A stretch of 64,000 nucleotides of DNA from Lantana camara (lineage: Eukaryota > Streptophyta > Magnoliopsida > Lamiales > Verbenaceae): the NCBI GenBank assembly GCA_037501455.1, contig CM074858.1, forward strand, positions 96,878,001-96,942,000, given 5' to 3'. Shown here piece after piece: positions 2,981 to 59,060 of the stretch. The translations under genes were made by a program, and so were the position numbers. A model generated the notes under the pieces. It saw nothing but the letters and a program-made list of their open reading frames with translations. It did no database searches and was not told the DNA's origin. Each line of letters starts with the position of its first letter. Position 1 is the stretch's first letter.

Positions 2981-3428
2981 TGTTAGGAATAGTGCCCTTA
3001 AAGCAGAGATTTTGCTTTACTATTTCCTTGTAAAATCACAAATAGTCTTTGAATAATAAACGAAATGATTTTATCCATAGGTAACACTTCTTTACGTGAT
3101 ATTTTATGTCTGTTTGGGTTTGACTGTCTTTTGCATATTTTGAACTCCCCTAATTCGATGAGGCCGTTAAGAACTTTATCCTATAAGAACGACACATGAA
3201 ACAAGTTCTTAACTCCATAGGCGAGGATTAGAAACTTCTCTACGTCGATGAGTTCGATAGACAGTGGGAGTGTCGACCTTGAATCCGTTGAGACTTGCTT
3301 TTGTGATTAGGTCCTTGAGAAGGATCACCCAGTTTTCATGGGGTGAGAAGTGCATATGATGATGTGTTCATAATACATAAGGGTGATTGCTACAAGAACT
3401 GTATCACTGAGATGTCCCGTGTAAGAAC
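2981..3428 (+). mobile_element. Copia 3' LTR, first half
   Basis: Begins TGTTAGGAATAGTG right after a purine-rich tract and the end of Copia RNase H. It is split at AGAAC (3424-3428) by the 8.7-kb element at 3429-12103 and resumes at 12109. The start resembles the reverse-complemented LTR fragment ending at 14549. Confidence 0.75.
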
Positions 3429-6038
3429 TGTAACGCCCCGATTTTTATTTATTAATATCTTATATCTAAAATAATTTTATAAATTATATTTTATAATACT
3501 TTCATGAAATTCATATTAAACTTATAATTTATCTCATAACTTGAAAATGTTTATTTCGTGAGATAATTACCGAAAATGATTTAATTGTCAACTTGGCCCT
3601 ATATGTTTATTCTTTTAAACTTAGGGACCAAATTGCATGAAAACCTTTGAGGACTAAAGTAATCACTTTCCAAACTTGATATCCTTAATTACTTAACTTA
3701 AATAACTTGGAGGGTTTAATTGCAAATATTACATATTTTCCCAAATATCACGTTATATGCTTCCTTGATCAATTATCATCAAAATTCACCAACATCTCCA
3801 TCTTTCTTGCTCTCGGTTCTTCACGTAGAAAAGGGGGAGAAGAGATTTCATCAAATCATCCAAGTTATTCAAGGAAATCCAAGCTTTTGAGCTCAAGCAT
3901 CCATCATCATCTTCTCCATTCATTTCTTTACCTTCAAAAGCATGTAAGTGGAAACATATGGTCTCTTGAGCATCTATGTAGGACCTAGGGTTTGAGGATG
4001 GCATGCTAGATGAACTCCTTGTTGTATAAAGCATGATTAAATGATGATATCTGGGATTATGGCATGATTAATTCATGAGATTCTTGAATAATTGGTATGA
4101 ATGATCAAGTATGATCATGAGTGTGAAATCATGAATTCTTGATGATCCTGTGTGTTTTGAGTGTTTAAGTGTTATGATATTATTTCTTGAACCTATATGC
4201 ATCATATTTCCAGAAAAACATGAATTGGTTGAGTGAAAATGGTTTTTTTGGTTGCTTTGTTATGCTTTCCCGTAGCTTTCCCCTGTTTTTTCCTCTGTTC
4301 TTCCTGTTTCAGAAACTGGGAACGACCGTTCCCAGCCTCAAGGCATTTCGGGAACGGGCGTTCCCACCTTTTCAAATGAACAAGGCGGCCGAGCATGGGA
4401 ACGGCCGTTCCCATTTTGGCCTTGCGCCGGAAGGGCTGTTCCCAGCTAAGGCGCATTTCTAAATGGGAAATCGTTGGCGCGTTTATTGGGGTTGTGGGAA
4501 CGACCGTTCCCACTTTACAAAGGGGTCCGGAACGGCCGTTCCCACCTCGCTGACAGAACAAATGTGACTGCATAAAATTACATTTTTAGCCCCTCGATCC
4601 AACGACTTCTTTGACCCCGAATTGCTGTAATATGTGCTAATATGATGTGAAACAACATGTTATCTTACCACATTGCATTTTCGTGGTCGTCTCGATACAT
4701 TTCCGCCGTTCGTCACATTTTGTGCATTTTAGGTCATGTCTCATGTATAAGTGTCGTGTTTGCACAGGTCACGAGGGCGTGGACGAGGAGCAGGCTCCGT
4801 AGAGCATATCCTTGTGTTATTTTGTAAGATAGGTGAGGTTTAATTGTTAGTTATATAGAACCTGTATACCCTTTATGTGATATTTTGGCCAAAAAGGTAT
4901 CTATAGTTAAACTTTCTATAAATCATTGATCATTTCAAGTTATGTTCAAGCAAGCCAGCAAGCAAGTCAGGTATTGTTTCATGCATGTTTAGGCGAGTAG
5001 CATGACGGATACGTTTGGGCCCGAGGGTAGTGACTGGAGCCAACCGGGAAAGCAAGGGCTGACGGGTAACTCTGGCGCTATCCTCACCACACTAGGGGTC
5101 ACCCCTGAATCCACTAGGAGGTTAGTGGAGGAAAGAGCTCCGGGCTTAGGGATTCATGTACCCTCTGCTCAATGAGATTGGATGTTGGGGCCTTGCAATC
5201 CCTTCATCAAACCGGAGGAAGAAGGAGACTGGGGACGAGTCCGGCACCACGGATGCGCCTCGGGTTATTGCATGATTGTCATTTCATGAACGTGTTATAT
5301 GAGTACACTATCGCACGATTGCACGATAAGTGAATTGCATGATCACCTATTGACTATTAAACAAGAGGGCGTGTTCATGTTCATTTGGAGATCGGTTGGA
5401 GACCGCCCTTACTCGCCGGGGCCATGTATTGATTGATTGCATGAAAACGAACAAGTACGTAATACTGGTAGTTGTAATCTCGGGCGAGTTTATGTGATTG
5501 TAAACTTATATTACTCTTGATTATAAAACCTTACCCGAGGTTATAGCTTGCATGTGATTGCGCTAATATATATTTATGCCCCTCGCTCAGTCTTCGGTAG
5601 ACTGATACTTCACTTTTCAGATACTTGAGAGCCGGTCGTGCTAGGCGGGAGTCTGGTCCAGTCTTGCATTGTCACGAGTCTAGCAGTGTACCATCTTGTA
5701 TATATTCTGCTACTTTTCATGTTATGTCCGTTATTATTACGTTCTGAGTACTTGATCAGGTATAGGTAGTAGGAGATGATAATGTATTAATAGTTAATTG
5801 GTATCTATACGTATCTATCCGATAAATATGGTACCTATATGTATTTATGAATAATGCTTCCGCTTTTAATTTTTATGTATTGGTATGGTATTGCTTTAGG
5901 GTTTAGTCCCGCCTAGCTCGTCTTTTCTTTTATTTGTCACCCGTTCGCTATAGGCTAGTTCATGTACGGATTGTCCATTTCGTATGTGGATCGGCCTATA
6001 GTGCGGGGTGTGGTATCCCTACGTATAGGGGTGCTACA
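3429..6038 (+). repeat. 5' LTR of element A
   Basis: 2,610 bp, TG...CA ends. Contains the palindrome array at 4318-4545. Its 3' end carries a CCCGTTCGC...TACGGA...TCCATTTCGTATGTGG module that also occurs, diverged, at LTR ends of the other families in the window. Open frames inside it recur unchanged in the 3' LTR and look non-coding. Confidence 0.93.
4318..4545 (+). repeat. Array of short palindromes in the 5' LTR
   Basis: Six dispersed units of the type GGGAACGRCCGTTCCC, at 4318, 4350, 4397, about 4428, 4496 and about 4529. Several are perfect inverted repeats; one is extended to 20 bp (4395-4414). The spacers are unrelated to each other. The same array recurs in the 3' LTR at 10375-10602. 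Confidence 0.9.
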
Positions 6039-6045
6039 TCTGAGG

Positions 6046-6057
6046 TGGTATCAGAGC
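6046..6057 (+). other. Primer-binding site of element A
   Basis: TGGTATCAGAGC lies 7 bases after the LTR end and is the complement of the 3' end of plant initiator tRNA-Met. Confidence 0.88.
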
Positions 6058-8342: not shown

Positions 8343-9075
8343 ATGTCGCAAGATCGCCCTTATAGGGAACGAGTGCCTAGAGTTTCTCCGCAACTACCCC
8401 CTCCGGTTCAGCCTCAGGAGTTTTTCGAGTCTTTGGTTCGTTTAGTAGATCAGAAGATAAAAGAGTATGTTTCTTCCGAGTCGCGGGACTTAGCATCACA
8501 GCCGGGCCAAATTTCGATGGCATTTAGGGAATTTCAGAACCAACCATCCTCAAGACCCTTTGAAGGAAACAAGGATTCCACCGGATCACAACTCAAGAAA
8601 ATCAAAAGAGTGTGGGAACTAACTCCGAGTGACTCCCAAGAAAAGGACCGAGGCACCACTTTGTTTGAGGCAAGAAGGTCTAATCCTCACCCCCGGATAG
8701 GCTTCAGGTTCGAAGTCGGGACAGCTTTTTAGCAAAGGAAAGCGGCCTATCTCTTATCATACCCCGATACCTCAGGAAAGATCTCGCAAGAAAAAGAAGC
8801 AATCACTTGGACCGAGTTCGGGAACTTCATGTAACCCAGTTTCAACAACATCTTCTGGGAAACTTCTTTGCAGTTATTGTGGACGTGATAACCACACTTA
8901 TGATGGTTGTAGGAAACGGTTGGGATTATGTCTCTACTGTGGAAGTGACGAGCATCACATCGACACTTGCTCAAGGCTACGAGGGAAATCTCCCGGGGGT
9001 AGAAGATTACCAGTGCGAGCACGGGAAGGTACCAATTATATACATGATACAACCAACGGTGAACGGTACCTTTAA
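8343..9075 (+). pseudogene. Gag remnant with two CCHC zinc knuckles
   Basis: An ATG at 8343 opens MSQDRPYRERVPR and a proline- and charge-rich frame that stops at 8732. Shifting by one base near 8700-8730 gives a basic linker (RSRKKKQ) and then two perfect C-x2-C-x4-H-x4-C knuckles, CSYCGRDNHTYDGC and CLYCGSDEHHIDTC, with a stop at 9075. Knuckles of this form are the nucleic-acid-binding part of retrotransposon Gag. The central Gag assembly domain is not evident, so the protein is either internally deleted or strongly reduced. No pol follows: about 400 bp later comes the polypurine tract. Confidence 0.8.
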
Positions 9076-9285: not shown

Positions 9286-9414
9286 GAGAGACGGGGCTCT
9301 CTCCTTTCCTGTTGAGAGACGGGGCTCTCTCACTTCTTGTTGAGAAACGGGGTTTCTCACTTCTTGTGAAAGACGGGGCTCTTTCATTCCTTATTCAAGA
9401 GACGGGGTTCTCTT
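9286..9414 (+). repeat. Array of five covarying CGGGG-loop hairpins
   Basis: Units at 9286, 9314, 9342, 9368 and 9397, about 28 bp apart. Stems differ but always pair: GAGAGA/TCTCTC, GAGAAA/TTTCTC, GAAAGA/TCTTTC, AAGAGA/TCTCTT, around a constant CGGGG loop. It lies between gag and the polypurine tract. The spacers are 'ttcttgt'-like. Confidence 0.92.
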
Positions 9415-9448: not shown

Positions 9449-9485
9449 GGACCTGGGGACCAGGTCCTTCTAAGGGGGGGAGAAT
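9449..9485 (+). other. Hairpin and polypurine tract of element A
   Basis: A perfect 8-bp hairpin (GGACCTGG, loop GGA, CCAGGTCC; 9449-9467) is followed by the polypurine tract AAGGGGGGGAGAAT (9472-9485), which abuts the 3' LTR and would prime plus-strand DNA synthesis. Confidence 0.85.
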
Positions 9486-12103
9486 TGTAACGCCCCGATT
9501 TTTATTTATTAATATCTTATGTCTAAAATAATTTTATAAATTATATTTTATAATACTTTCATGAAATTCATATTAAACTTATAATTTATCTCATAACTTG
9601 AAAATGTTTATTTCGTGAGATAATTACCGAAAATGATTTAATTGTCAACTTGGCCCTATATGTTTATTCTTTTAAACTTAGGGACCAAATTGCATGAAAA
9701 CCTTTGAGGACTAAAGTAATCACTTTCCAAACTTGATATCCTTAATTGCTTAACTTAAATAACTTGGAGGGTTTAATTGCAAATATTACATATTTTCCCA
9801 AATATCACGTTATATGCTTCCTTGATCAATTATCATCGAAATTCACCAACATCTCCATCTTTCTTGCTCTCGGTTCTTCACGTAGAAAAGGGGGAGAAGA
9901 GATTTCATCAAATCATCCAAGTTATTCAAGGAAATCCAAGCTTTTGAGCTCAAGCATCCATCATCATCTTCTCCATTCATTTCTTTACCTTCAAAAGCAT
10001 GTAAGTGGAAACATATGGTCTCTTGAGCATCTATGTAGGACCTAGGGTTTGAGGATGGCATGCTAGATGAACTCCTTGTTGTATAAAGCATGATTAAATG
10101 ATGATATCTGGGATTATGGCATGATTAATTCATGAGATTCTTGAATAATTGGTATGAATGATCAAGTATGATCATGAGTGTGAAATCATGAATTCTTGAT
10201 GATCCTGTGTGTTTTGAGTGTTTAAGTGTTATGATATTATTTCTTGAACCTATATGCATCATATTTCCAGAAAAACATGAATTGGTTGAGTGAAAATGGT
10301 TTTTTTGGTTGCTTTGTTATGCTTTCCCGTAGCTTTCCCCTGTTTTTTCCTCTGTTCTTCCTGTTTCAGAAACTGGGAACGACCGTTCCCAGCCTCAAGG
10401 CATTTCGGGAACGGGCGTTCCCACCTTTTCAAATGAACAAGGCGGCCGAGCATGGGAACGGCCGTTCCCATTTTGGCCTTGCGCCGGAAGGGCCGTTCCC
10501 AGCTAAGGCGCATTTCTAAATGGGAAATCGTTGGCGCATTTATTGGGGTTGTGGGAACGACCGTTCCCACTTTACAAAGGGGTCCGGAACGGCCGTTCCC
10601 ACCTCGCTGACAGAACAAATGTGACTGCATAAAATTACATTTTTAGCCCCTCGATCCAATGACTTCTTTGACCCCGAATTGCTGTAATATGTGCTAATAT
10701 GATGTGAAACAACATGTTATCTTACCACATTGCATTTTCGTGGTCGTCTCGATACATTTCCGCCGTTCGTCACATTTTGTGCATTTTAGGTCATGTCTCA
10801 TGTATAAGTGTCGTGTTTGCACAGGTCACGAGGGCGTGGACGAGGAGCAGGCTCCGTAGAGCATATCCTTGTGTTATTTTGTAAGATAGGTGAGGTTTAA
10901 TTGTTAGTTATATAGAACCTGTATACCCTTTATGTGATATTTTGGCCAAAAAGGTATTTATAGTTATACTTTCTATAAATCATTGATCATTTCAAGTTAT
11001 GTTCAAGCAAGCCAGCAAGCAAGCAAGCAAGTCAGGTATTGTTTCATGCATGTTTAGGCGAGTAGCATGACGGATACGTTTGGGCCCGAGGGTAGTGACT
11101 GGAGCCAACCGGGAAAGCAAGGGCTGACGGGTAACTCTGGCGCTATCCTCACCACACTAGGGGTCACCCCTGAATCCACTAGGAGGTTAGTGGAGGAAGG
11201 AGCTCCAGGCTTAGGGATTCATGTACCCTCTGCTCAATGAGATTGGATGTTGGGGCCTTGCAATCCCTTCATCAAACCGGAGGAAGAAGGAGACTGGGGA
11301 TGAGTCCGGTACCACGGATGCGCCTCGGGTTATTGCATGATTGTCATTTCATGAACGTGTTATATGAGTACACTATCGCACGATTGCACGATAAGTGAAT
11401 TGCATGATCACCTATTGACTATTAAACAAGAGAGCGTGTTCATGTTCATTTGGAGATCGGTTGGAGACCGCCCTTACTCGCCGGGGCCATGTATTGATTG
11501 ATTGCATGAAAACGAACAAGTACGTAATACTGGTAGTTGTAATCTCGGGCGAGTTTATGTGATTGTAAACTTATATTACTCTTGATTATAAAACCTTACC
11601 CGAGGTTATAGCTTGCATGTGATTGCGCTAATATATATTTATGCCCCTCGCTCAGTCTTCGGTAGACTGATACTTCACTTTTCAGGTACTTGAGAGCCGG
11701 TCGTGCTAGGCGGGAGTCTGGTCCAGTCTTGCATTGTCACGAGTCTAGCAGTGTACCATCTTGTATATATTCTGCTACTTTTCATGTTATGTCCGTTATT
11801 ATTACGTTCTGAGTACTTGATCAGGTATAGGTAGTAGGAGATGATAATGTATTGATAGTTAATTGGTATCTATACGTATCTATCCGATAAATATGGTACC
11901 TATATGTATTTATGAATAATGCTTCCGCTTTTAACTTTTATGTATTGGTATGGTATTGCTTTGGGGTTTAGTCCCGCCTAGCTCGTCTTTTCTTTTATTT
12001 GTCACCCGTTCGCTATAGGCTAGTTCATGTACGGATTGTCCATTTCGTATGTGGATCGGCCTATAGTGCGGGGTGTGGTATCCCTACGTATAGGGGTGCT
12101 ACA
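9486..12103 (+). repeat. 3' LTR of element A
   Basis: 2,618 bp, near-identical to 3429-6038. The main length difference is 8 extra bases in a CAAG repeat near 11010. The palindrome array recurs at 10375-10602. Confidence 0.93.
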
Positions 12104-12108
12104 AGAAC

Positions 12109-14975: not shown

Positions 14976-15992
14976 GAGAAAATTGTATTTTTTGTCCCAT
15001 AGAACATAGGTCAATTTTTTTTGGTCCCGTAGTTTTTAAATCGTCCCACACTTTCAGTTTTTCGACAAATGTAGTCCCAAAGTGAAAATTTTTCACTATT
15101 AGTCCCAAAAAATTTTAGAAATATATATTTATAATATTTTTCCTTAATTAAAAAATACATATCAAATATTAGGAAAATTTTAAAAGAATACCAAACACAA
15201 GATATGCATTTTATTTTTATAATAAATAATAAATTATTAAATTCTAAAGTATAAGTATTACTTTAAAATTATAAAATAAAAAAATAAAAACATATACATA
15301 GTAACATAATTAATAAAATAATCTTCAATATTGCATTTAGTTAAAAATATATAAAATAAAAAATTGAAAATAATTAATATATATGCCTACTAATTGAAAA
15401 TAAAATATTGATGTTATTTTTTAATTCTCATTGGCTACTAATTACTTTTTAATTTTTTAATAAATATTATATTACTGAATAAAATATATATAAATTTTCT
15501 ATTATTTTCAATTTTAACTAAACCCAACGTTAATTATTTTAAATAAATACAATGTTATATATATAAGAAATATTTAAGTATTATAAATATTAATTATTTT
15601 CAATTTTTTATTTTACATATTTTTAACTAAATGCAATATTGAAGATTATTTTATTAATTATGTTATTATGTATATATTTTTATTTTTTTATTTTATAATT
15701 TTAAAGTAATACTTATACTTTAAAATGTAATAATTTATTATTTATTATAAAAATAAAATACATATCATGTGGTTGGTATTCTTTTAAAATTTTCCTAATA
15801 TTTGATATGTATTTTTTAATTAAGGAAAAATATTATAAATATATATTTCTAAATTTGTTGGGACTAATATTGAATTTTTTTCACTTTGGGACTACATTTG
15901 TCGAAAAACTAAAAGTACGGGACGATTTAAAAACTACGGGACCAAAAAAAAAATAAACCAATTTCCTATGGGACCAAAAATGCAATTTTCTC
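14976..15992. mobile_element. Mutator-like foldback MITE with 9-bp target duplication
   Basis: A 1,017-bp element that is almost all inverted repeat. The left arm runs from GAGAAAATTG (14976) to about 15400; the right arm runs from about 15570 to CAATTTTCTC (15992); the loop is only about 170 bp. It is flanked by ACTATAAAT at 14967-14975 and 15993-16001. A 9-bp duplication and GAGAAAATTG ends fit the Mutator superfamily. There is no transposase. A transcript would fold into one long hairpin and could feed small-RNA production. Confidence 0.88.
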
Positions 15993-16065: not shown

Positions 16066-16830
16066 TGAATGTTTGGTATTATGCAATTATTCTAAGAACA
16101 ACTCAATATATTGCTGAAATGTATAACTCTACAGAAGTGTGTTCCTATTATGCATTATTACTGAAAAATTCGACATGTTGTTGAAATTATTAGACGTATT
16201 GGATTGTATAACTCTATACAAGTGCGTTCCTATTATGCAATTATTCTGAAACAACTCAACATATTGCTGAAATTATTAGGTATATTGCTTGTATAACTCT
16301 GCACAAGTGTATTCCTACTATACAATTATTCTGAAATAACACAACATATTGCTAAAATTATTAGACTTATTGACTTGTACAACCCTATACAAGTGTATTT
16401 CTATTATGCAATTATTCTGAAACAACTCGACATATTACTGAAATTATTAGACATATTGACATGTACAACTCTATATAAGTGTGTTTTTATAATGCATTAT
16501 TACTAAAACAACTTGACATATTTCTACAATTATCAGACGTATTGGCTTGTAAAACTCTACAAAAGTGTATTCTTACTATGCATTATTATTGAAACAACTC
16601 GACATATTTCCAAAATATTAGACGTATTGGTTTGTACAACCCTACATCAGTGTGTTTTTATCATGCAATTATTCTCAAACAAATTGACATATTGCTAAAA
16701 TTATTAGATGTATTAACTTGTACAACTCTACCGAAGTATGTTCTTATCATACATTATAACTGAAACAATTCACATTTTTATGAAATTATTAGACATATTG
16801 ACTTGTACAACTCTACATATTTTTGAAATT
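16066..16830 (+). repeat. Tandem array, about 86-bp unit, roughly nine copies
   Basis: A GTGTrTTCcTAyTATGCa core starts near 16137, 16222, 16307, 16393, 16479, 16565, 16650 and 16736. Each unit also has 'acaactc.acatattgctgaaattattaga' and 'ttgtacaactcta'. Units are diverged, so the array is old. Open frames in it are accidental. Confidence 0.88.
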
Positions 16831-16833
16831 ACC

Positions 16834-16990
16834 ATGGATAAAAGAAACAGAAACAACAATAATATCTTGTTTATTACAATGGATCAAGCAAACAAAAATA
16901 ACAACAATATCCGATTTATTATCATGGATCAAGCAAATAGAAACAACAACAATATCTAGTTTATTACCATAGATCGAGCAAAACTACAAC
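16834..16990 (+). repeat. 45-bp minisatellite
   Basis: Three full units begin ATGGAT at 16834, 16879 and 16924; a fourth partial one begins at 16969. The 45-bp period keeps one frame open (TMDQANKNNNNI-type), but nothing suggests a real protein. Confidence 0.8.
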
Positions 16991-19235
16991 AACGGTGACG
17001 ACTAGTTTATTACCACATAAGTAGAAAAACAAAATATTATCAACTTCAAGTAGCTTATTTGATTACAACAACAAAGAAAACATCATCAACCACAGCAAGC
17101 AGAACAGAGTCCATATCAACAAAGAAAATATCATTAACCAATTTATTAGCATAGATAAAACGAACAAAAACAACAACAAGTAGTTTTTTCGGTTACAACA
17201 ACAACAAAAAACAACCCTTAAATACATAAAATCTTCAACTTCCGTTTGCATAGGAAGGGAGCGGCGTGGTCCTCAACTTCAAAACGCACATTGGGCATGC
17301 TCATGCATGGCTCCGATGCGTACGGTGACATCTTGTAACACCCGAGCGCAAGGTGTCACATCCCCCGCACCGAGACCCGACCCGAATATGAAATGGACGA
17401 TCCATACCCGAGCCAAATCACGGCGAACGGGGACATACACACACTCTATGCTAGGCGGGACTAACCCTTGAACCATAACATCAGAGTAATTGTAAATACG
17501 GAAGCAATAACTATCCATTACATAAACAATGAGTGAACAAAATCCAAAAATGATCCATATACATTATCAAATGCCGTCACGGCTTAACAAACAAGTACGC
17601 TCCAATAGCAACATTCATATACAATGATCACAAGTGCAAAATGCGAGTGTAAGAGCAATAAACAAAAGGACTAGAAACGAAAACAAGACCTAAGACTTGA
17701 AATCCCGCCTAGCTCCCCTGACACTTGCACAAAACAACTGAAAGCCAAACGGGTTCAGTCCAAAAGGGACTGGTGGGTATAAAAGCAGGGCATAATTATA
17801 ATATACAACGGAATTTAACAATCACATGCAAGCTATAATCCCAAGTGAGGTTTTTAAAGGATTTCCCAAGTGGGCAAATAGAAATCATCAAAAGGGATTA
17901 TAACGATTCATTTACATTAGGTCAAGGTCATTAGTGGCCCGGCGAGTGGGCGTGCATTATCTCCAACCAACACCTCGTGTAATTCATTAACATTCATTAA
18001 CATTCATTGACATTCATTCATTCATTCATTCTTTCTTTTCATGCATATCATTCTTTCGTGCGCATTCAATAACATTTACACCTTCTTCCTCCGGGTTGGT
18101 GGCGGGTTTGCAAGGCCCATCCACCCATTCATTGACCAAAAGGGGAACATGACTCCCCAGATGGCACTCAGCATCCATTCCTCGCTAACTCCTAACGAGG
18201 TCCGGTTACGCCGTTCATTGGTGGGACTAGTGTGAGGGTTTCCCGTCAGCCCATGCCTCCTCGGTTCCCACTCACACCAAGCCCCTGGGCCCCATTCGTT
18301 GTGAACATTCATTCATTCTCGCCAAAACATTTGGTAGGTTCAAGAAACAAGGGCTTTACGTTTGCAATCATTTACTCGAAAAAAGACTCAATATATATAT
18401 CATATTACTTGGGCTTAAAACTTTTCACATAGGGAGATATAACGGGTCGTTTTATCTAAGTAGAAGAGAAACCCACCTTAAACCGCAAAAAGGAGCAAAC
18501 ACAAGCCTCACTGACCGGCCTCGCTTCCAACGGACTCAAAATCTGTGCAAGAGAGGTGAGGTGAGACTCAATATGACCAAATAAGACGCTCGGCAATGAA
18601 ATGATTATGACATGAATGTATAAGAGATGCTATAATGTAATGTACACGTTCATGTGCACTATTAAAGTCTTAAGGACATATAAACGTTCAATTCATTCAC
18701 TTTCATTCGAATTCATAATTTCAATCAAATTAATTCAAGAAATTCAAATATAATCAAAGTACAAATTAAATCACATTTAAAATTAGAACATAAACATTTA
18801 AACATATTCAATCGCATTTACTATTAGAAATTAAACAATTAAATACATTCAATTAAATTTAGGAAATTAAATAAAGCATGAAATAGGTAATATTTAAATT
18901 CTAATAATTCAATTAAATCAAATAACAATTAATATTTAATAAATATATATAATATATTAAATATATATACATACGTAAACCTATACTATATTATATTATA
19001 AATATATATATAATTATACATGTAACGTAAAGCATGCATGCACAAATAACAAATGCATGCAAAGTATATATAATATATATAGGAAACATGCATGCAATGA
19101 GAATCAATATACATGCAAACATTGCATTAACAAAACTCATGCAGAAGAAAAAGGAAAGAACAATAGCAGTAGCAGCAGCTCGCGTAACAGCAGAAACAGG
19201 CATGAAAAACAAGGGTGTCACCTTCAAGGAGCAAA

Positions 19236-19257
19236 CCGAGACACCCCCGTGTCTCGG
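19236..19257 (-). repeat. 9-bp-stem hairpin in the LTR of element B
   Basis: CCGAGACAC, loop CCCC, GTGTCTCGG. It is absent from the other LTR copy (deletion at about 26354). Conversely, the other copy keeps a 10-bp-stem hairpin (26314-26337) that is half deleted here at about 19214. Confidence 0.9.
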
Positions 19258-20786
19258 TACAGAAGTTCAGACCAAAAACACACCCCCGTTCCAGCTGAAA
19301 ATGAAGGAAAAAGACACACCCGTGTCGCAGCGAACACAGCAGCAACAAACACGCATACAACCCCTGTTTTTCTAGCTCAAACGCATTCACAACTCAAGCA
19401 ACAATTAGGCCATATATGTAGCTATAAATGACATGAATTGCAGCAAGAAATCAGCTCAAAACCACCTCAATTCTGACAGCAAAAGAGCAAGAGAAACAGC
19501 AGCTGTGACAGCGACAATCCAGGCCCAAAAACAGGGTAAAAACTCACGCAAAACAGGGTATGGTTGATCTCCATTAATCCCAACACATTCATATAAGTTA
19601 GGCTAACAAATATGCAGCAAAACACCACAAATTCAACCTATAAATCAGTCCCACAACCGTTCAAACATGAAAGCTGTCATACGTGACTTTTATTCAAAGT
19701 TTTCTCAATGTTCCAAAGTTGATATCTCATAAATACTTCAACTACCATGCAATTAATGATCATGAATGAAAAGAAGATATCAAAACAATCATTCTCAAGC
19801 TTGGAATCATTCAAATCCATCAAGAATCGAAGAAGATCAATAAAATGCCCAAAAATGTCTCTATTCAAGATCAGCCGAAAAATGCATGAAACCATGATCA
19901 AATTTGGGGATGAATGAATGAAAATGACCAGGAATGAACATATAATACAACCCTAAGCTTACCTTGTTGATTGGATGAGGATTGGATGAGATTTGAGCTC
20001 CAAAATCTCCAAGGAAACAAGGGTTACGGGATGGAAACTGGAGAGCAGAAACTTTGGCTGAAATTTGTGAATTGTGAGAGGGTTGGTTCGGTTAGGGCTT
20101 GGTATAGCAGGTTAGGTGGTTGATTTAGGGTTCTATAGCATCAAACCATGGTTAATTTGGTCAACAATTGAATAAGTTATGGCCATTCTAGTGCAACAAG
20201 GTCAGTTTCGTCGCCGTTTCGTTTTTCGGTTGAAATTCAGAGGTTCAATTGACGTTAGAAAAATATAAGGCTAAGTTTACTAAACTCGAATTTTCGTTAC
20301 GAGTTCAGAGAAGTTGACGGAACTCGAATCCGAGTTCCCGAGCTCAAGATATTAAATACGGAACCAAGGGTGCGCTAAGTGCTCGTTAGCCCCCGACTTG
20401 GATTCCAAAATACAAATTAAATCCGAAACACAAGCAAATGAATTCGAAAATACGAAACGAACAAATATTCATGTACAAGACACGTATAAGTTCAACATAT
20501 TAAATTCGCACAAAATCCCGGTATCAATTCAAATAGAAACGAAGCACTCAAACGTGATCAAACAATAAAAGCCAAAATATTACAAAAATGTAACATTTAC
20601 ATACTTATATAATATATTATAATTACATGCATAAAAATTTAATTTATAAATATACATGCATGCATACGTATATAATATATATAAATACATGCATGCAATA
20701 TTATATAAGTTATAATTATAAAATGCATGCAAATATGATATATAAGTATTACATGCATGCATAATTAAATCCATGCACACACGTAC

Positions 20787-20790
<4 letters not shown>

Positions 20791-20840
<50 letters not shown>
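20791..20840. repeat. (AT)n microsatellite
   Basis: About 25 AT units, shared with the other LTR copy at 27890-27945 but of different length. Confidence 0.95.
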
Positions 20841-20844
<4 letters not shown>

Positions 20845-21141
20845 TTATATTATATAATTTAATTAATATTAATAACATTAAATTAAATAATTAACATCTA
20901 ATATAATTAAAATAAAATGTAAATACATAAAACACATAAAAATAATTATTCGCGCAATTAAGGAGCACACAAGTTATTCACATAAATTCAAATTCAAATA
21001 TTGCATATATTTCAATTAGTCACTTATTTAACAATTAAACAATGAAATTTAATTATGGAAAACACTAAAGCCAATTAATTTGTGCAATTAAGTAAACATA
21101 TACGTCATGCTGTACTAATAAAAAGAACTGGGGCGTTACAA

Positions 21142-21175
21142 CCTTTCCCCCTTAAAAGAATCCGTCCTCGGATTC
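21142..21175 (-). other. Polypurine tract and adjoining hairpin of element B
   Basis: On the minus strand, a hairpin (GAATCCG, loop AGGA, CGGATTC; 21158-21175) runs directly into CTTTTAAGGGGGAAAGG, the polypurine tract next to the 3' LTR. This is the same arrangement as in element A with an unrelated stem. Confidence 0.83.
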
Positions 21176-21202
21176 ATTATCTGCCTGAAAACAATTAATG
21201 AA

Positions 21203-21359
21203 GGAACCCCGTTCCTCACAAACAACAAGGAGAGAATCACCGTCTCTCAAACAACAAGGAGAGAACCCTGTCTCTCGCAAGCAAAGAGAGCACCCCGTCT
21301 CTCGAACAAAAATAAGAGCATCCCCGTCTCTTACAAACAATGAGAGCACCCCGTCTCTC
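21203..21359 (-). repeat. Array of six covarying CGGGG-type hairpins
   Basis: On the minus strand, units end at 21359, 21332, 21303, 21276, 21248 and 21215. Stems are GAGAG/CTCTC, AAGAG/CTCTT, GAGAGA/TCTCTC and GGAAC/GTTCC around CGGGG or a close variant. It has the same place and form as the array at 9286-9414. Confidence 0.88.
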
Positions 21360-24435: not shown

Positions 24436-27400
24436 TGTAACACCGGAGCGCAAGGTGTCACATCCCCCCGCACCGAGACCCGACCCGAATATGAAATGGA
24501 CGATCCATACCCGAGCCAAATCACGGCGAACGGGGACATACACACACTCTATGCTAGGCGGGACTAACCCTTGAACCATAACATCAGAGTAATTGCAAAT
24601 ACGGAAGCAATAACTATCCATTACATAAACAATGAGTGAACAAAATCCAAAAATGATCCATATACATTATCAAATGCCGTCACGGCTTAACAAACAAGTA
24701 CGCTCCAATAGCAACATTCATATACAATGATCACAAGTGCAAAATGCGAGTGTAAGACCAATAAACAAAAGGACTAGAAATGAAAACAAGACCTAAGACT
24801 CGAAATCCCGCCTAGCTCCCCTGACACCTGCACAAAACAACTGAAAGCCAAACGGGTTCAGTCCAAAAGGGACTGGTGGGTATAAAAGCAGGGCATAATT
24901 ATAATATACAACGAAATTTAACAATCACATGCAAGCTATAATCCCAAGTGAGGTTTTTAAAGGATTTCCCAAGTGGGCAAATAGAAATCATCAAAAGGGA
25001 TTATAACGATTCATTTACATTAGGTCAAGGTCATTAGTGGCCCGGCGAGTGGGCGTGCATTATCTCCAACCAACACCTCGTGTAATTCATTAACATTCAT
25101 TAACATTCATTGACATTCATTCATTCATTCTTTCTTTCGTTTCATGCATATCATTCTTTCGTGCGCATTCAATAACATTTACACCTTCTTCCTCCGGGTT
25201 GGTGGCGGGTTTGCAAGGCCCATCCACCTATTCATTAACCAAAAGGGGAACATGACTCCCCAGATGGAACTCAGCGTCCATTCCTCGCTAACTCCTAACG
25301 AGGTCCGGTTACGCCGTTCATTGGTGGGACTAGTGTGAGGGTTTCCCGTCAGCCCATGCCTCCTCGGTTCCCACTCACACCAAGCCCCTGGGCCCCATTC
25401 GTTGTGAACATTCATTCATTCTCGCCAAAACATTTGGTAGGTTCAAGAAACAAGGGTTTTACGTTTGCAATCATTTACTCGACAAAAGACTCAATATATA
25501 TATCATATTACTTTGGCTTAAAACTTTTCACATAGGGAGATATATCGGGTCGTTTTATCTAAGTAGAAGAGAAACCCACCTTAAACCGCAAAAAGGAGCA
25601 AACACAAGCCTCACTGACCGGCCTCGCTTCCAACGGACTCAAAATCTGTGCAAGAGAGGTGAGGTGAGACTCAATATGACCAAATAAGACGCTCGGCAAT
25701 GAAATGATTATGACATGAATGTATAAGAGATGCTATAATGTAATGTACACGTTCATGTGCACTATTAAAGTCTTAAGGACATATAAACGTTCAATTCATT
25801 CACTTTCATTCGAATTCATAATTTCAATCAAATTAATTCAAGAAATTCAAATATAATCAAAGTACAAATTAAATCACATTTAAAATTAGAACATAAACAT
25901 TTAAACATATTCAATCGCATTTACTATTAGAAATTAAACAATTAAATACATTCAATTAAATTTAGGAAATTAAATAAAGCATGAAATAGGTAATATTTAA
26001 ATTCTAATAATTCAATTAAATCAAATAACAATTAATATTTAATAAACATATATAATATATTAAATATATATACATACGTAAACCTATACTATATTATATT
26101 ATAAATATATATATAATTATACATGTAACGTAAAGCATGCATGCACAAATAACAAATGCATGCAAAGTATATATAATATATATAGGAAACATGCATGCAA
26201 TGAGAATCAATATACATGCAAACATTGCATTAACAAAACTCATACAGAAGAAAAAGGAAAGAACAATAGCAGCAGCAGCAGCTCGCGTAACAGCAGAAAC
26301 AGGCATGAAAAACAAGGTGACACCCCCGTGTCACCTTCAAGGAGCAAACCGAGAGGTACAGAAGTTCAGACCAAAAACACACCCCCGTTCCAGCTGAAAA
26401 TGAAGGAAAAAGACACACCCGTGTCGCAGCGAACACAGCAGCAACAAACACGCATACAACCCCTGTTTTTCTAGCTCAAACGCATTCACAACTCAAGCAA
26501 CAATTAGGCCATATATGTAGCTATAAATGACATGAATTGCAGCAAGAAATCAGCTCAAAACCACCTCAATTCTGACAGCAAAAGAGCAAGAGAAACAGCA
26601 GCTGTGACAGCAACAATCCAGGCCCAAAAACAGGGTAAAAACTCACGCAAAACAGGGTATGGTTGATCTCCATTAATCCCAACACATTCATATAAGTTAG
26701 GCTAACAAATATGCAGCAAAACACCACAAATTCAACCTATAAATCAGTCCCACAACCGTTCAAACATGAAAGTTGTCATACGTGACTTTTCTTCAAAGTT
26801 TTCTCAATGTTCCAAAGTTGATATCTCATAAATACTTCAACTACCATGCAATTAATGATCATGAATGAAAAGAAGATATCAAAACAATCATTCTCAAGCT
26901 TGGAATCATTCAAATCCATCAAGAATCGAAGAAGATCAATAAAATGCCCAAAAATGTCTCTATTCAAGATCAGCCGAAAAATGCATGAAACCATGATCAA
27001 ATTTGGGGATGAATGAATGAAAATGACCAGGAATGAACATATAATACAACCCTAAGCTTACCTTGTTGATTGGATGAGGATTGGATGAGATTTGAGCTCC
27101 AAAATCTCCAAGGAAACAAGGGTTACGGGATGGAAACTGGAGAGCAGAAACTTTGGCTGAAATTTGTGAATTGTGAGAGGGTTGGTTCGGTTAGGGCTTG
27201 GTATAGCAGGTTAGGTGGTTGATTTAGGGTTCTATAGCATCAAACCATGGTTAATTTGGTCAACAATTGAATAAGTTATGGCCATTCTAGTGCAACAAGG
27301 TCAGTTTCGTCGCCGTTTCGTTTTTCGGTTGAAATTCGGAGGTCCAATTGACGTTAGAAAAATATAAGGCTAAGTTTACTAAACTCGAATTTTCGTTACG

Positions 27401-27885
27401 AGTTCAGAGAAGTTGACGGAACTCGAATCCGAGTTCCCGAGCTCAAGATATTAAATACGGAACCAAGGGTGCGCTAAGTGCTCGTTAGCCCCCGACTTGG
27501 ATTCCAAAATACAAATTAAATCCGAAACACAAGCAAATGAATTCGAAAATACGAAACGAACAAATATTCATGTACAAGACACGTATAAGTTCAACATATT
27601 AAATTCGCACAAAATCCCGGTATCAATTCAAATAGAAACGAAGCACTCAAACGTGATCAAACAATAAAAGCCAAAATATTACAAAAATGTAACATTTACA
27701 TACTTATATAATATATTATAATTACATGCATAAAAATTTAATTTATAAATATACATGCATGCATACGTATATAATATATATAAATACATGCATGCAATAT
27801 TATATAAGTTATAATTATAAAATGCATGCAAATATGATATATAAGTATTACATGCATGCATAATTAAATCCATGCACACACGTAC

Positions 27886-27951
<66 letters not shown>

Positions 27952-28242
27952 TATATAATTTAATTAATATTAATAACATTAAATTAAATAATTAACATCT
28001 AATATAATTAAAATAAAATGTAAATACATAAAACACGTAAAAATAATTATTCGCGCAATTAAGGAGCACACAAGTTATTCACATAAATTCAAATTCAAAT
28101 ATTGCATATATTTCAATTAGTCACTTATTTAACAATTAAACAATGAAATTTAATTATGGAAAACACTAAAGACCAATTAATTTGCGCAATTAAGTAAACA
28201 TATACGTCATGCTGTACTAATAAAAAGAACTGGGGCGTTACA
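24436..28242 (-). repeat. 5' LTR of element B
   Basis: Near-identical to 17334-21140. Carries the perfect hairpin AAGGTGACAC, loop CCCC, GTGTCACCTT (26314-26337), an (AT)n tract at 27890-27945 and the same CATGCATG clusters. Confidence 0.93.
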
Positions 28243-56408: not shown

Positions 56409-59060
56409 TGTAACGTCCCGATTTTTATTAACTAATTTCTTACGTTTCATTATAATTTTATAAATTAAATTTTAGTACACTTTCATGATATTATATATAG
56501 AATCCTATTATTGGAAAATTATTCCATAACTCGGAAAAATATTTATTACCTGAAACATTACCAAAAGTGATTTAATTACGAAATTGTCCCTATATGTTCA
56601 TTCTTTTAAATCTAGGGACCAAATTGCATAACTTTTCCAAGGACTTAATTGATCAATTAACAAACCATTTATCCTTGATTGCATGACTTAAATTCTTGAG
56701 GGATTAAATTGCAATTTGAACAATTCACACATTTCAAAAATGGATGAATCACGGTATATCATTTCTTCAAGCTTCTTTGATCATTTCTCACCCAAGATCA
56801 TCGATCATTTGCTCCCTTCTCTTACCGAACCAAAACCTCAAGGAAGAAGAAAGAATTTTACTCATTTTTCATCAAGATTCCAAGAAAAGTTCCAAGCTTT
56901 GAAGTTTAGTCATCATCATCATCTATCTTCTCCATTTCTTTCATTCAAATGTGGGTGTGAGCATGGTTTGATGATTCTTGCCCAAGTATGGGTTAGCTAG
57001 GGTTTGTGATTTATGCAATATATGGATTATATGTTAGTAGATGCATGAATATGTGATTATAACTTGGACTAAGACATGAATTCTTGAAGAACTTGAGCTT
57101 ATGTGAGGATATGGAGTATGAACTTGAAAGTAGAAAATTGTAATGATCAAGCATGATTTAAGTGTTTTAGCTACATTTTATTGTATATTGAACATGTATG
57201 TATGATTATTTCCAGAATTCTTGCATTTTAAAGTGAATTGGATGATGTTTTGGGGTTGTTGTTTTTGTGCCGAATCCATCCCCTGTTCTGCTCTGTTTCT
57301 GCACTTACAGAGGAACGGGAACGACCCTTCCCGTCCCCAGTTCATTCTGGGAATGGCCATTCCCACTCCTTTGAATTCAAAGAGGGCACGCGCATGGGAA
57401 CGACCGTTTCCATTTTGGCCTACAAGCCGGAAGGGCCGTTCCCATCAAAGTTGCCATTTTAAATCATAAAGCGCAGTGGCGTTTTCGGTGAAGCATGGGA
57501 ATGGCCCTTCCCATTTTACACTAAGGGCTGGAACAGCCGTTCCCATGTCTCTGGCAGAACAAAACCTACAGCATAAAAATGGGATTTTGACATTTTGCTC
57601 CAATGACTTCTTTGATCCCAAATTGGTATTGTATGACTAATTACGTGCTAAAACATGATATTTACATGCCACATTGTATATTGCACGTTATCTCGTTGCA
57701 TATTCGCCGTTAATCATATTTGGTCCATTTAGAGTCATGTCTCACGTGTACACGTCTATCTTGCACAGACCAGCTTCACCGGGACGAGGAACAAGCCCCG
57801 TAGACCGTATCCTACTCGTCTTTTGTTGGTAAAGGTGAGGTTTAATTGCTAGTTATAGAGAACCCGTATAACCATTATGTGGAATTTCAAGCCAAAAGGT
57901 ATATATATATTTATTTACAATGATTTCTAAACTTATAAACAATTGCAAGCAAGCCATGTTCATGAAAAGCAAGTCATGTATCGTGATTGATTGATTGATC
58001 GTGTTTTGGCGAGTAAAGCATGTCACGTTGGGCCCGAGGATAGTGGCTAGAGCCAACCGGGAAAGCATGGGCTGATGGGTAACTCTAGTGCTATCCTCAC
58101 CACATTGGGATGACCCCTGAATCCGCTAGGAGATTAGTGGAGGAAGGAGTTCCGGGCTTAGGGATTCATGTACCCTCTGCTCAATGAGATTAGATGGTGG
58201 GGCCTTGCAATCCCACCATCACCGGGGGAAGAAGGAGACTGGGGACGGGTTCGGCACCACGGATTGTCCTCGGGTTATCGTCATGATTGCACTTATTAAT
58301 TGTCTTGCCTGAATTCACATGCACGATAGCTGAATTGCATGATCACCTATTGAATAATAAAGCAAGCATGTATTGTACACTGTCGGAGTAAGGTTGGAGA
58401 ATTGCCCTCACTCGCCAGGCCACGTATTGAACGCATGAAATTGATTAAAGTATTTAATATTGGTAGTTGTAATCTCGGGCGAGTTCTATGTTATTATGAA
58501 CTTATATTACTTTTAATTATAAATCCTTACCCGAGGTTATAACTTGCATGTTAGTTGTGCTAATATATATGTATGCCCCTCACTCAGTCTTCCATGGATT
58601 GACGCCCCACCTTTCAGGTTGTCGCGGTCGGGTGCTAGGCGGGAGTCAGAGTCGTTTCTTATCGTCCAGCTGAGTCTTGCAGTACATACATTTTCTTGTT
58701 ATTGTTCTTGGTATTTCAGGGTTAGTATGTTATGGTTATTGTTAGTATCTGGAGACTTCTATCTGTATAATATATAGGAGATGATAATGTATTGATTCAT
58801 GATGGTACCTATTAGTATTTATGCTTTGAATGTAAATATGGTACCTATATGTACTAAAGAGTTAATGCTTCCGCTTTTAAATTTTATGTCTTGGTTGTGG
58901 TATTGCTTTGGGGTATAGTCCCACCTAGCTAGCCTGTTTCTTTTACTTGTCACCCGTTCGCTATAGGTTAGTTCATGTACGGATTATCCGTTTCGTATGT
59001 GGATCGGCCTATAGTGCGGGGGTGTAATATCTCTACGTGCGGGGGTGTAATATCTCTACA
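56409..59060 (+). mobile_element. Solo LTR, 2.65 kb, related to element A
   Basis: Starts TGTAACGTCCCGATTTTTATT and ends ATCTCTACA, with a perfect duplication ATACG at 56404-56408 and 59061-59065. It is collinear with the element A LTR over its length but clearly diverged, so it is another subfamily or older. A 22-bp tail segment (gtgcgggggtgtaatatctct) is doubled just before its end. Confidence 0.88.
57315..57545 (+). repeat. Palindrome array in the solo LTR
   Basis: Units such as GGGAATGGCCATTCCC, GGGAACGACCCTTCCC-like and GGAACAGCCGTTCCC, at the same offset (about 0.9 kb) from the LTR start as in element A. Several centres have changed while the arms still pair. Confidence 0.82.

Follow-up and report, generated by a model that had tools for sequence, protein, structure and literature searches.

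Do the five short hairpins at positions 9286–9414 of a 64,000-nucleotide stretch of the Lantana camara genome (assembly GCA_037501455.1, contig CM074858.1, positions 96,878,001 to 96,942,000; hereafter the window) fold under selection, and if they do, on which strand and in what role? The hairpins belong to a complete long terminal repeat (LTR) retrotransposon, here called element A, and are found in its 3′ internal region, upstream of the 3′ LTR. A preliminary description, made from the sequence alone, had proposed covarying stems around a constant CGGGG loop before the polypurine tract (PPT). The array is one case of a genome-wide element that is common to diverged families, and there is little doubt that its structure is real and selected. 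Whether it acts as a structured cis-acting RNA signal, carried in the 3′ internal region by a large group of plant LTR retrotransposons, is a proposal to which we give even weight. No description of this element was found in the open-access literature, a search outside which most subscription journals fall.

The hairpin array

All five hairpins are on the plus strand and were read from the sequence and from single-unit folds. Hairpin 1 (GAGAGA-CGGGGC-TCTCTC, 9286–9303) is followed by hairpin 2 (TGAGAGA-CGGGGC-TCTCTCA, 9313–9332, with a 6-bp core at 9314–9331), hairpin 3 (TGAGAAA-CGGGG-TTTCTCA, 9341–9359, core 9342–9358), hairpin 4 (TGAAAGA-CGGGGC-TCTTTCA, 9367–9386, core 9368–9385) and hairpin 5 (AAGAGA-CGGGGT-TCTCTT, 9397–9414). 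The stems are perfect over 6–7 bp, the seventh pair being a T-A in hairpins 2, 3 and 4. Their letters, and their position before the PPT, are those given in the preliminary description. The CGGGG motifs start at 9292, 9320, 9348, 9374 and 9403, and the resulting intervals of 28, 28, 26 and 29 agree with the even spacing of about 28 bp reported there. The constant loop requires a correction: the CGGGG core holds, but the loop is not exactly CGGGG, consisting instead of CGGGG plus 0 or 1 base.

The pattern GAGARACGGGGYTYTCTC, allowing up to 3 mismatches, matched the window nine times, against a mean of 0.08 and a maximum of 1 in 100 dinucleotide shuffles. Four matches fall in the array of element A (hairpin 3 lies outside the pattern owing to its shorter loop), four in a minus-strand array at 21200–21359, and one in an LTR of element B (19238). 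Element B is a second LTR element of the window, diverged and in minus orientation, with its own array before its PPT. In four of the six repeats of this array the loop is CGGGG, and in the other two a single base of it is altered (CAGGG, CGGTG); stems include GAGAG/CTCTC, AAGAG/CTCTT, GAGAGA/TCTCTC and AGGAA/TTCCT. A search of window positions 1–28000 against 4,227 Rfam families returned no matches at the gathering score.

Genome-wide occurrence

A stem-blind pattern, in which three ACGGGG motifs were placed at hairpin spacing and the arms were left free, gave 24,365 matches (12,157 + 12,208), several per array, in the 1.27 Gb of genome searched, compared with 30 (15 + 15) for a reversed-pattern control. 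One 18-base hairpin has 26,796 exact genome copies. Neither this spread through the genome nor the minus-strand array of the window was noted in the preliminary description. The first 100 listed stem-blind matches corresponded to 60 loci, of which 21 were dropped because the same array had been refetched or because the first 60 bases were identical; the 39 retained, which without exception lie within the first 15.5 Mb of a single chromosome, were combined with element B into a sample of 40 arrays and 183 loops. These arrays hold 3 to 9 CGGGG loops each, with 138 of 143 intervals at 26–31 nt. A PPT and an LTR starting with TGTAAC follow 61–358 nt past the last loop in 35 of the 40 arrays, and the other five have no PPT or LTR within the stretch examined. 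Downstream of one array (locus L081) is a sequence that we take, by eye, to resemble the end of a chromovirus integrase; judging from this locus, the array may in some elements lie inside a deletion derivative.

Chance was considered as a source of the arrays and rejected on the dinucleotide shuffles, the reversed-pattern control and matches in viral contigs. In 120 viral-contig stretches with the array pattern, 6/6 pairing was seen in 0 of 599 loops and 5/6 pairing in 4 of 599 among the matches listed, the base composition of these contigs being unmatched to that of the plant genome.

Covariation and constraint of the stems

Each stem was scored in whichever of four loop registers gave the most Watson-Crick pairs, no other criterion being applied. 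Perfect 6-bp stems number 122 of 183 in the 40 arrays. When the 3′ arms were redealt within arrays, a mean of 70 perfect stems remained (maximum 82 in 500 shuffles), and when they were redealt across arrays the mean was 62 (maximum 74). Plain tandem repetition was rejected on the loss of perfect stems after redealing within arrays. Exact genome counts for the third stem pair are 26,796 for G-C, 1,414 for A-T, 398 for G.T and 164 for A.C. The compensated A-T form would be expected about 99 times if the arms were independent, and the odds ratio, given for this third pair only, is 580; since the counts are of copies and not of independent events, they are to be read as effect sizes and not as probabilities. 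Further forms among the 183 stems are GAGAGT/ACTCTC (2), GAGGGA/TCCCTC (1) and GGGAGA/TCTCCC (1). Changes on one arm are therefore matched on the other, as the preliminary description had asserted from the five hairpins, and covariation is strong across both copies and families.

The 5′ arms are mostly purine and the 3′ arms mostly pyrimidine, and the base pairs are exchangeable. This composition could also be read as extra plus-strand priming, in which the purine arms (GAGAGACGGGG) are spare PPTs of the Sirevirus kind while the hairpins do no more than gate RNase H. Purine-rich units do cluster before the 3′ LTR, and in the published accounts, of which parts of the text are used here and below, Sireviruses average four PPT copies before the 3′ LTR (PMC2829016) and the Ty3 PPT is GAGAGAGAGGAAGA (PMC11381356). 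Spare PPTs, however, need only the purine strand to be conserved, whereas here the pyrimidine arm covaries. In the units, moreover, a C interrupts the purine run, and they do not repeat the PPT of the element itself (AAGGGGG...), in which they differ from those of Sireviruses. Extra priming therefore appears improbable as an explanation of the array.

Constraint on the stems was measured in the 40 copies nearest to element A, which were chosen by likeness, so that all rates are lowered. Differences per site per copy were 0.0087 in stems (80 columns, including those of a further hairpin beside the PPT, described below), 0.026 in loops (34 columns), 0.050 in spacers (83 columns), 0.036 at the LTR start (70 columns) and 0.027 upstream (30 columns). 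Stem variability is thus about 6 times below that of the spacers, and the arms do not change as fast as their surroundings. Loop changes were C to T in 28 of 34 cases. Departures from the commonest pair amounted to 13 G.U, 5 A.C and 9 other cells of 1,600. Covariation and low stem divergence together uphold the earlier suggestion that an RNA or single-stranded DNA structure is under selection, neither of the two outcomes named there as refuting it having been observed.

The matched arms could potentially have arisen without selection, by template switching in hairpins (quasipalindrome correction) at reverse transcription, followed by tandem expansion. The tandem arrangement of the units and their number of 3 to 9 would be accommodated by such a process, but the roughly 6-fold lower variability of stems than of spacers in the same copies would not. 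Correction would also erase G.T as readily as A.C, and it has no need of the CGGGG loop and the 26–31 spacing (138 of 143 intervals) that are kept in diverged families. We consider an origin by template switching very unlikely.

Which strand folds

Because the two arms are reverse complements, mirror changes share their local context, and strand-symmetric mutation should therefore give G.T and A.C mispairs in equal numbers. A G.T on the plus strand is a wobble pair and reads as A.C on the minus strand. Among genome copies, G.T outnumbers A.C by 398 to 164 at the third pair and by 1,980 to 192 at pair 2. This excess of G.T on the plus strand favours folding of that strand, which has the sense of the genomic RNA, rather than of minus-strand complementary DNA, and it speaks against a cruciform or a dimeric site in DNA. 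We are fairly confident that folding takes place on the plus strand. G.T is also better than A.C in DNA; selection most likely acts on the plus strand in its folded form, as genomic RNA or, less likely, as plus-strand DNA.

The same counts bear on a reading of the units as DNA-level palindromes, that is, as dimeric protein binding sites or cruciforms in the integrated copy. Inverted arms, a DNA fold z of −3.5 and the repeated palindromes of Sirevirus LTRs (PMC2829016) would be consistent with it. A dimer site specific for sequence would nevertheless fix the letters of the arms, which here are exchanged, and a cruciform, using both strands, predicts G.T equal to A.C, where 1,980:192 and 398:164 were seen. 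Selection on palindromes in the integrated DNA is thus a poor candidate, and folding of the plus strand is preferred. For any repeat family, the G.T versus A.C bias between inverted arms provides a test by which selection on RNA can be told apart from palindromes at the DNA level.

A second hairpin beside the polypurine tract

The PPT of element A (AAGGGGGGGAGAA, 9472–9484, plus strand) was read from the sequence and is separated by a single base from the 3′ LTR, which starts at 9486. Between it and the array is a further plus-strand hairpin, GGACCTG-GGGAC-CAGGTCC (9449–9467), which ends 4 bases before the PPT and was absent from the preliminary description. The corresponding hairpin of element B, GAATCCG-AGGA-CGGATTC (21158–21175, minus strand), was likewise read from the sequence. 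A perfect stem of at least 6 bp is found directly before the PPT in 32 of the 35 arrays that have one. Across the forms GGACCTG/CAGGTCC, GAATCCG/CGGATTC, GAATCTG/CAGATTC and GGATCTG/CAGATCC, three of seven pairs are exchanged on both sides. In 11 distinct rows, which descend from few events, 94.8% of cells are paired, against 86.2% after shuffling, and the covariation score is 0.379, against 0.196; neither value was reached in 500 shuffles. The PPT-side hairpin may help to define the plus-strand primer, or may keep the PPT open.

At nine loci (L052, L067, L077, L078, L082, L087, L091, L092 and L098), a further shared stretch, CT[G/A]ACGGGGAGT...GGGATGAA, follows the array and precedes the PPT-side hairpin.

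Possible role of the array

A multivalent RNA-binding partner is proposed because the loop is constant, the stem exchangeable, the units repeated and the spacing steady. Each 6–7 bp stem would display an unpaired CGGGG, the loop being what the partner reads, and the succession of 3 to 9 units, a second exchangeable hairpin, the PPT and the LTR would constitute the layout of the signal. The repeated G-rich loops could then offer a multivalent platform for the zinc knuckles of the Gag nucleocapsid, and Gag binding would let the RNA of these elements, including those without pol, be selected and packaged or dimerised. A packaging or dimer signal is the role that we prefer, although we judge the case for it to be evenly balanced. 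In Ty3, packaging needs untranslated regions or POL sequences together with the Gag zinc finger (PMC4974528).

Bearing on the packaging role only, two of the eight loci whose frames were listed, L045 and L069, retain upstream of the array an open frame in which there are two CCHC knuckles. The Gag-like frame of L045 spans 277 amino acids from its first Met, includes two CCHC knuckles and, in a protein search that covered 1,057 candidates, had no homologue at E 0.01; a non-autonomous element could encode it as a stand-alone RNA-binding protein. Upstream of the arrays of L101 and L102, examined for an autonomous partner, there are two frames of at least 150 amino acids in L101 and none in L102, and no pol was recognised, no Pfam search having been run on these frames. 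The Gag-like frame of L101 is on the strand opposite to its array.

The folded RNA could also serve in other ways, such as GGGG loop-loop or G-quartet dimerisation, pairing of CGGGGC with a GCCCCG near the beginning of the LTR that follows, export from the nucleus or 3′-end protection. Several GGGG loops are available per RNA, and for loop-LTR pairing CCCC occupies bases 8–11 in 31 of 35 array-adjoining LTRs, with the full GCCCCG in 18 of 35. The remaining 4 of 35 neighbouring LTRs, however, are without CCCC, and arrays of only three units exist (11 of 40, three being the minimum of the pattern). We regard these further roles as doubtful.

To our knowledge, the selection of plant retrotransposon RNA for packaging, and the use of helpers by non-autonomous families, are largely unknown. 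Tentatively, the array might belong to an RNA "passport", in that diverged, mostly pol-less families of one plant share little beyond the CGGGG array, the hairpin beside the PPT and the sites of priming. If so, the shared parts would be all that the Gag and reverse transcriptase of a helper need to carry these families, and the number of units would tune the strength of mobilisation per family. As the motif is compact, repeated and backed by covariation, with 26,796 copies of its 18-base form, it lends itself to direct tests of its structure, of its partner and of what the number of units does.

Several results weigh against a selected RNA structure with a packaging role. In the 40 close copies, no two-sided changes were found. 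As plus RNA, the whole regions of element A (z of −0.67) and element B (z of 0.09) fold no better than their shuffles, whereas that of element A does fold better as minus RNA (z of −4.06) and as plus DNA (z of −3.5); each unit alone folds as drawn, with modest single-unit z values of −0.34 to −2.89. The wobble bias in the small sets is in the same direction as in the genome, but weak: stems with at least 4 pairs in the 40 arrays have 28 G.U and 15 A.C (P about 0.05 on 29:15), and the close copies have 10 G.U, 3 A.C and 8 other site events (P of 0.09 for 10:3). At the third pair the G.T excess is only 2.4-fold, and the spread of a subfamily can inflate G.T copy counts; the GGGAGA/TCTCTC form, however, does not stem from one subfamily alone, because the four of 40 sampled arrays that carry it differ in their surroundings. 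For the PPT-side hairpin, two of five measures are no better than in shuffles, with 3 pairs changed on both sides versus 2.5 shuffled and 3 further pair types versus 5.5. Finally, the packaging sequences of Ty1, Ty3 and HIV-1 are at the 5′ end (PMC11381356).

Structure of the two elements

Element A has two LTRs with TG...CA ends, a target-site duplication, a primer binding site and a PPT, in accordance with its classification as an LTR retrotransposon. The 5′ LTR (3429–6038, plus strand; TGTAACGCCCCGA...GGTGCTACA) shares 99.05% identity over 2,618 aligned bases with the 3′ LTR (9486–12103, plus strand), which was delimited by LTR-LTR comparison. The target duplication, AGAAC (5 bp), was read from the flanks at 3424–3428 and 12104–12108, and given this duplication and the near-identity of the LTRs, the insertion is young. 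The primer binding site TGGTATCAGAGC (6046–6057, plus strand), read from the sequence after the 5′ LTR, presumably matches the initiator Met tRNA. Gag-like coding remains extend over 8343–9075 on the plus strand, the N-terminal part being carried by a frame that runs to 8732, and two zinc knuckles of the CCHC type, recognised by eye, by a frame at 8701–9075. The Gag-like frame is broken in element A, while the relative L045 keeps one open frame. Pfam searches with the two Gag-like frames of the window gave sub-threshold matches only, and no capsid domain was recognised. Besides this Gag-like one, no frame of at least 150 amino acids occurs between the LTRs, Pfam having been run on the two frames only.

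Both LTRs of element A contain clusters of palindromes of the form GGGAACGNNCGTTCCC, at about 4317–4545 and 10374–10600. A further LTR at 56409–59055 has 72% identity to those of element A and no hairpin array before it, and is probably a solo LTR. The window also holds NAC-like and PI4-kinase-like frames, which we take to be plant genes.

The LTRs of element B, both on the minus strand, were identified by LTR-LTR comparison, and the 3′ LTR (17334–21140) has 98.5% identity to the 5′ LTR (24436–28242). No frame of at least 150 amino acids occurs between them. Long palindromes with a CGGGGG centre are found in these LTRs on the minus strand at 19258 and 26337, with different stems and a like centre. 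One LTR contains ACCGAGACACGGGGGTGTCTCGGT, and the other contains AAGGTGACACGGGGGTGTCACCTT about 23 bases further on. Near element B, an AT-rich inverted repeat at 15015–15951, with 280-nt arms that are 96% complementary, is perhaps a miniature inverted-repeat element, and a tandem array at 16077–16839 consists of units of about 86 bp that are 60–85% alike.

Comparison with known systems

TR-GAG elements are non-autonomous LTR elements with gag-like coding, and element A is similar in its Gag-like coding and in that no pol was seen. It differs from them in that no capsid domain was recognised in its two frames, and element B has no frame of at least 150 amino acids between its LTRs. The stem-loops of retroviral packaging and dimerisation, whose packaging loops present unpaired G, and the cis signals of Ty1 and Ty3 are hairpins near an RNA end, as is the array, with a zinc-knuckle Gag as the supposed partner. 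The signals of Ty1, Ty3 and HIV-1, however, are at the 5′ end (PMC11381356), whereas the array comprises 3 to 9 near-identical units at the 3′ end.

The 3′ tandem repeats of Retand elements (PMC11963269), like the array, follow the coding part and precede the 3′ LTR in plant LTR retrotransposons. Retand repeats are described as family-specific and of unknown origin and function (PMC11963269), whereas the array unit is common to diverged families and defined by its structure. In the Retand text, "hairpin" and "secondary structure" have no matches (PMC11963269).

The linker of Sireviruses (Ty1/copia) has multiple PPT copies and an inverted repeat at the terminal PPT, and palindromic motifs are present in the LTRs (PMC2829016). 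The right arm of the Sirevirus inverted repeat is inside the LTR (PMC2829016), whereas the hairpin of element A at 9449–9467 is wholly upstream of the PPT, with no arm inside the 3′ LTR; no search was made for an additional, longer repeat extending into the LTR. Identical PPT octamers of the Sirevirus type (AGGGGGAG) were not found in the array, the units there being of the GAGAGACGGGG type and having partners that covary. The part of the Sirevirus account used here has no stems that covary around a constant loop (PMC2829016), as those of the array do. Element A nonetheless resembles Sireviruses in the purine-rich units before its 3′ LTR, in an inverted repeat at the PPT and in the repeated palindromes of its LTR, where GGGAACGNNCGTTCCC is akin to the repeated CGG-CCG motifs of Sirevirus LTRs (PMC2829016).
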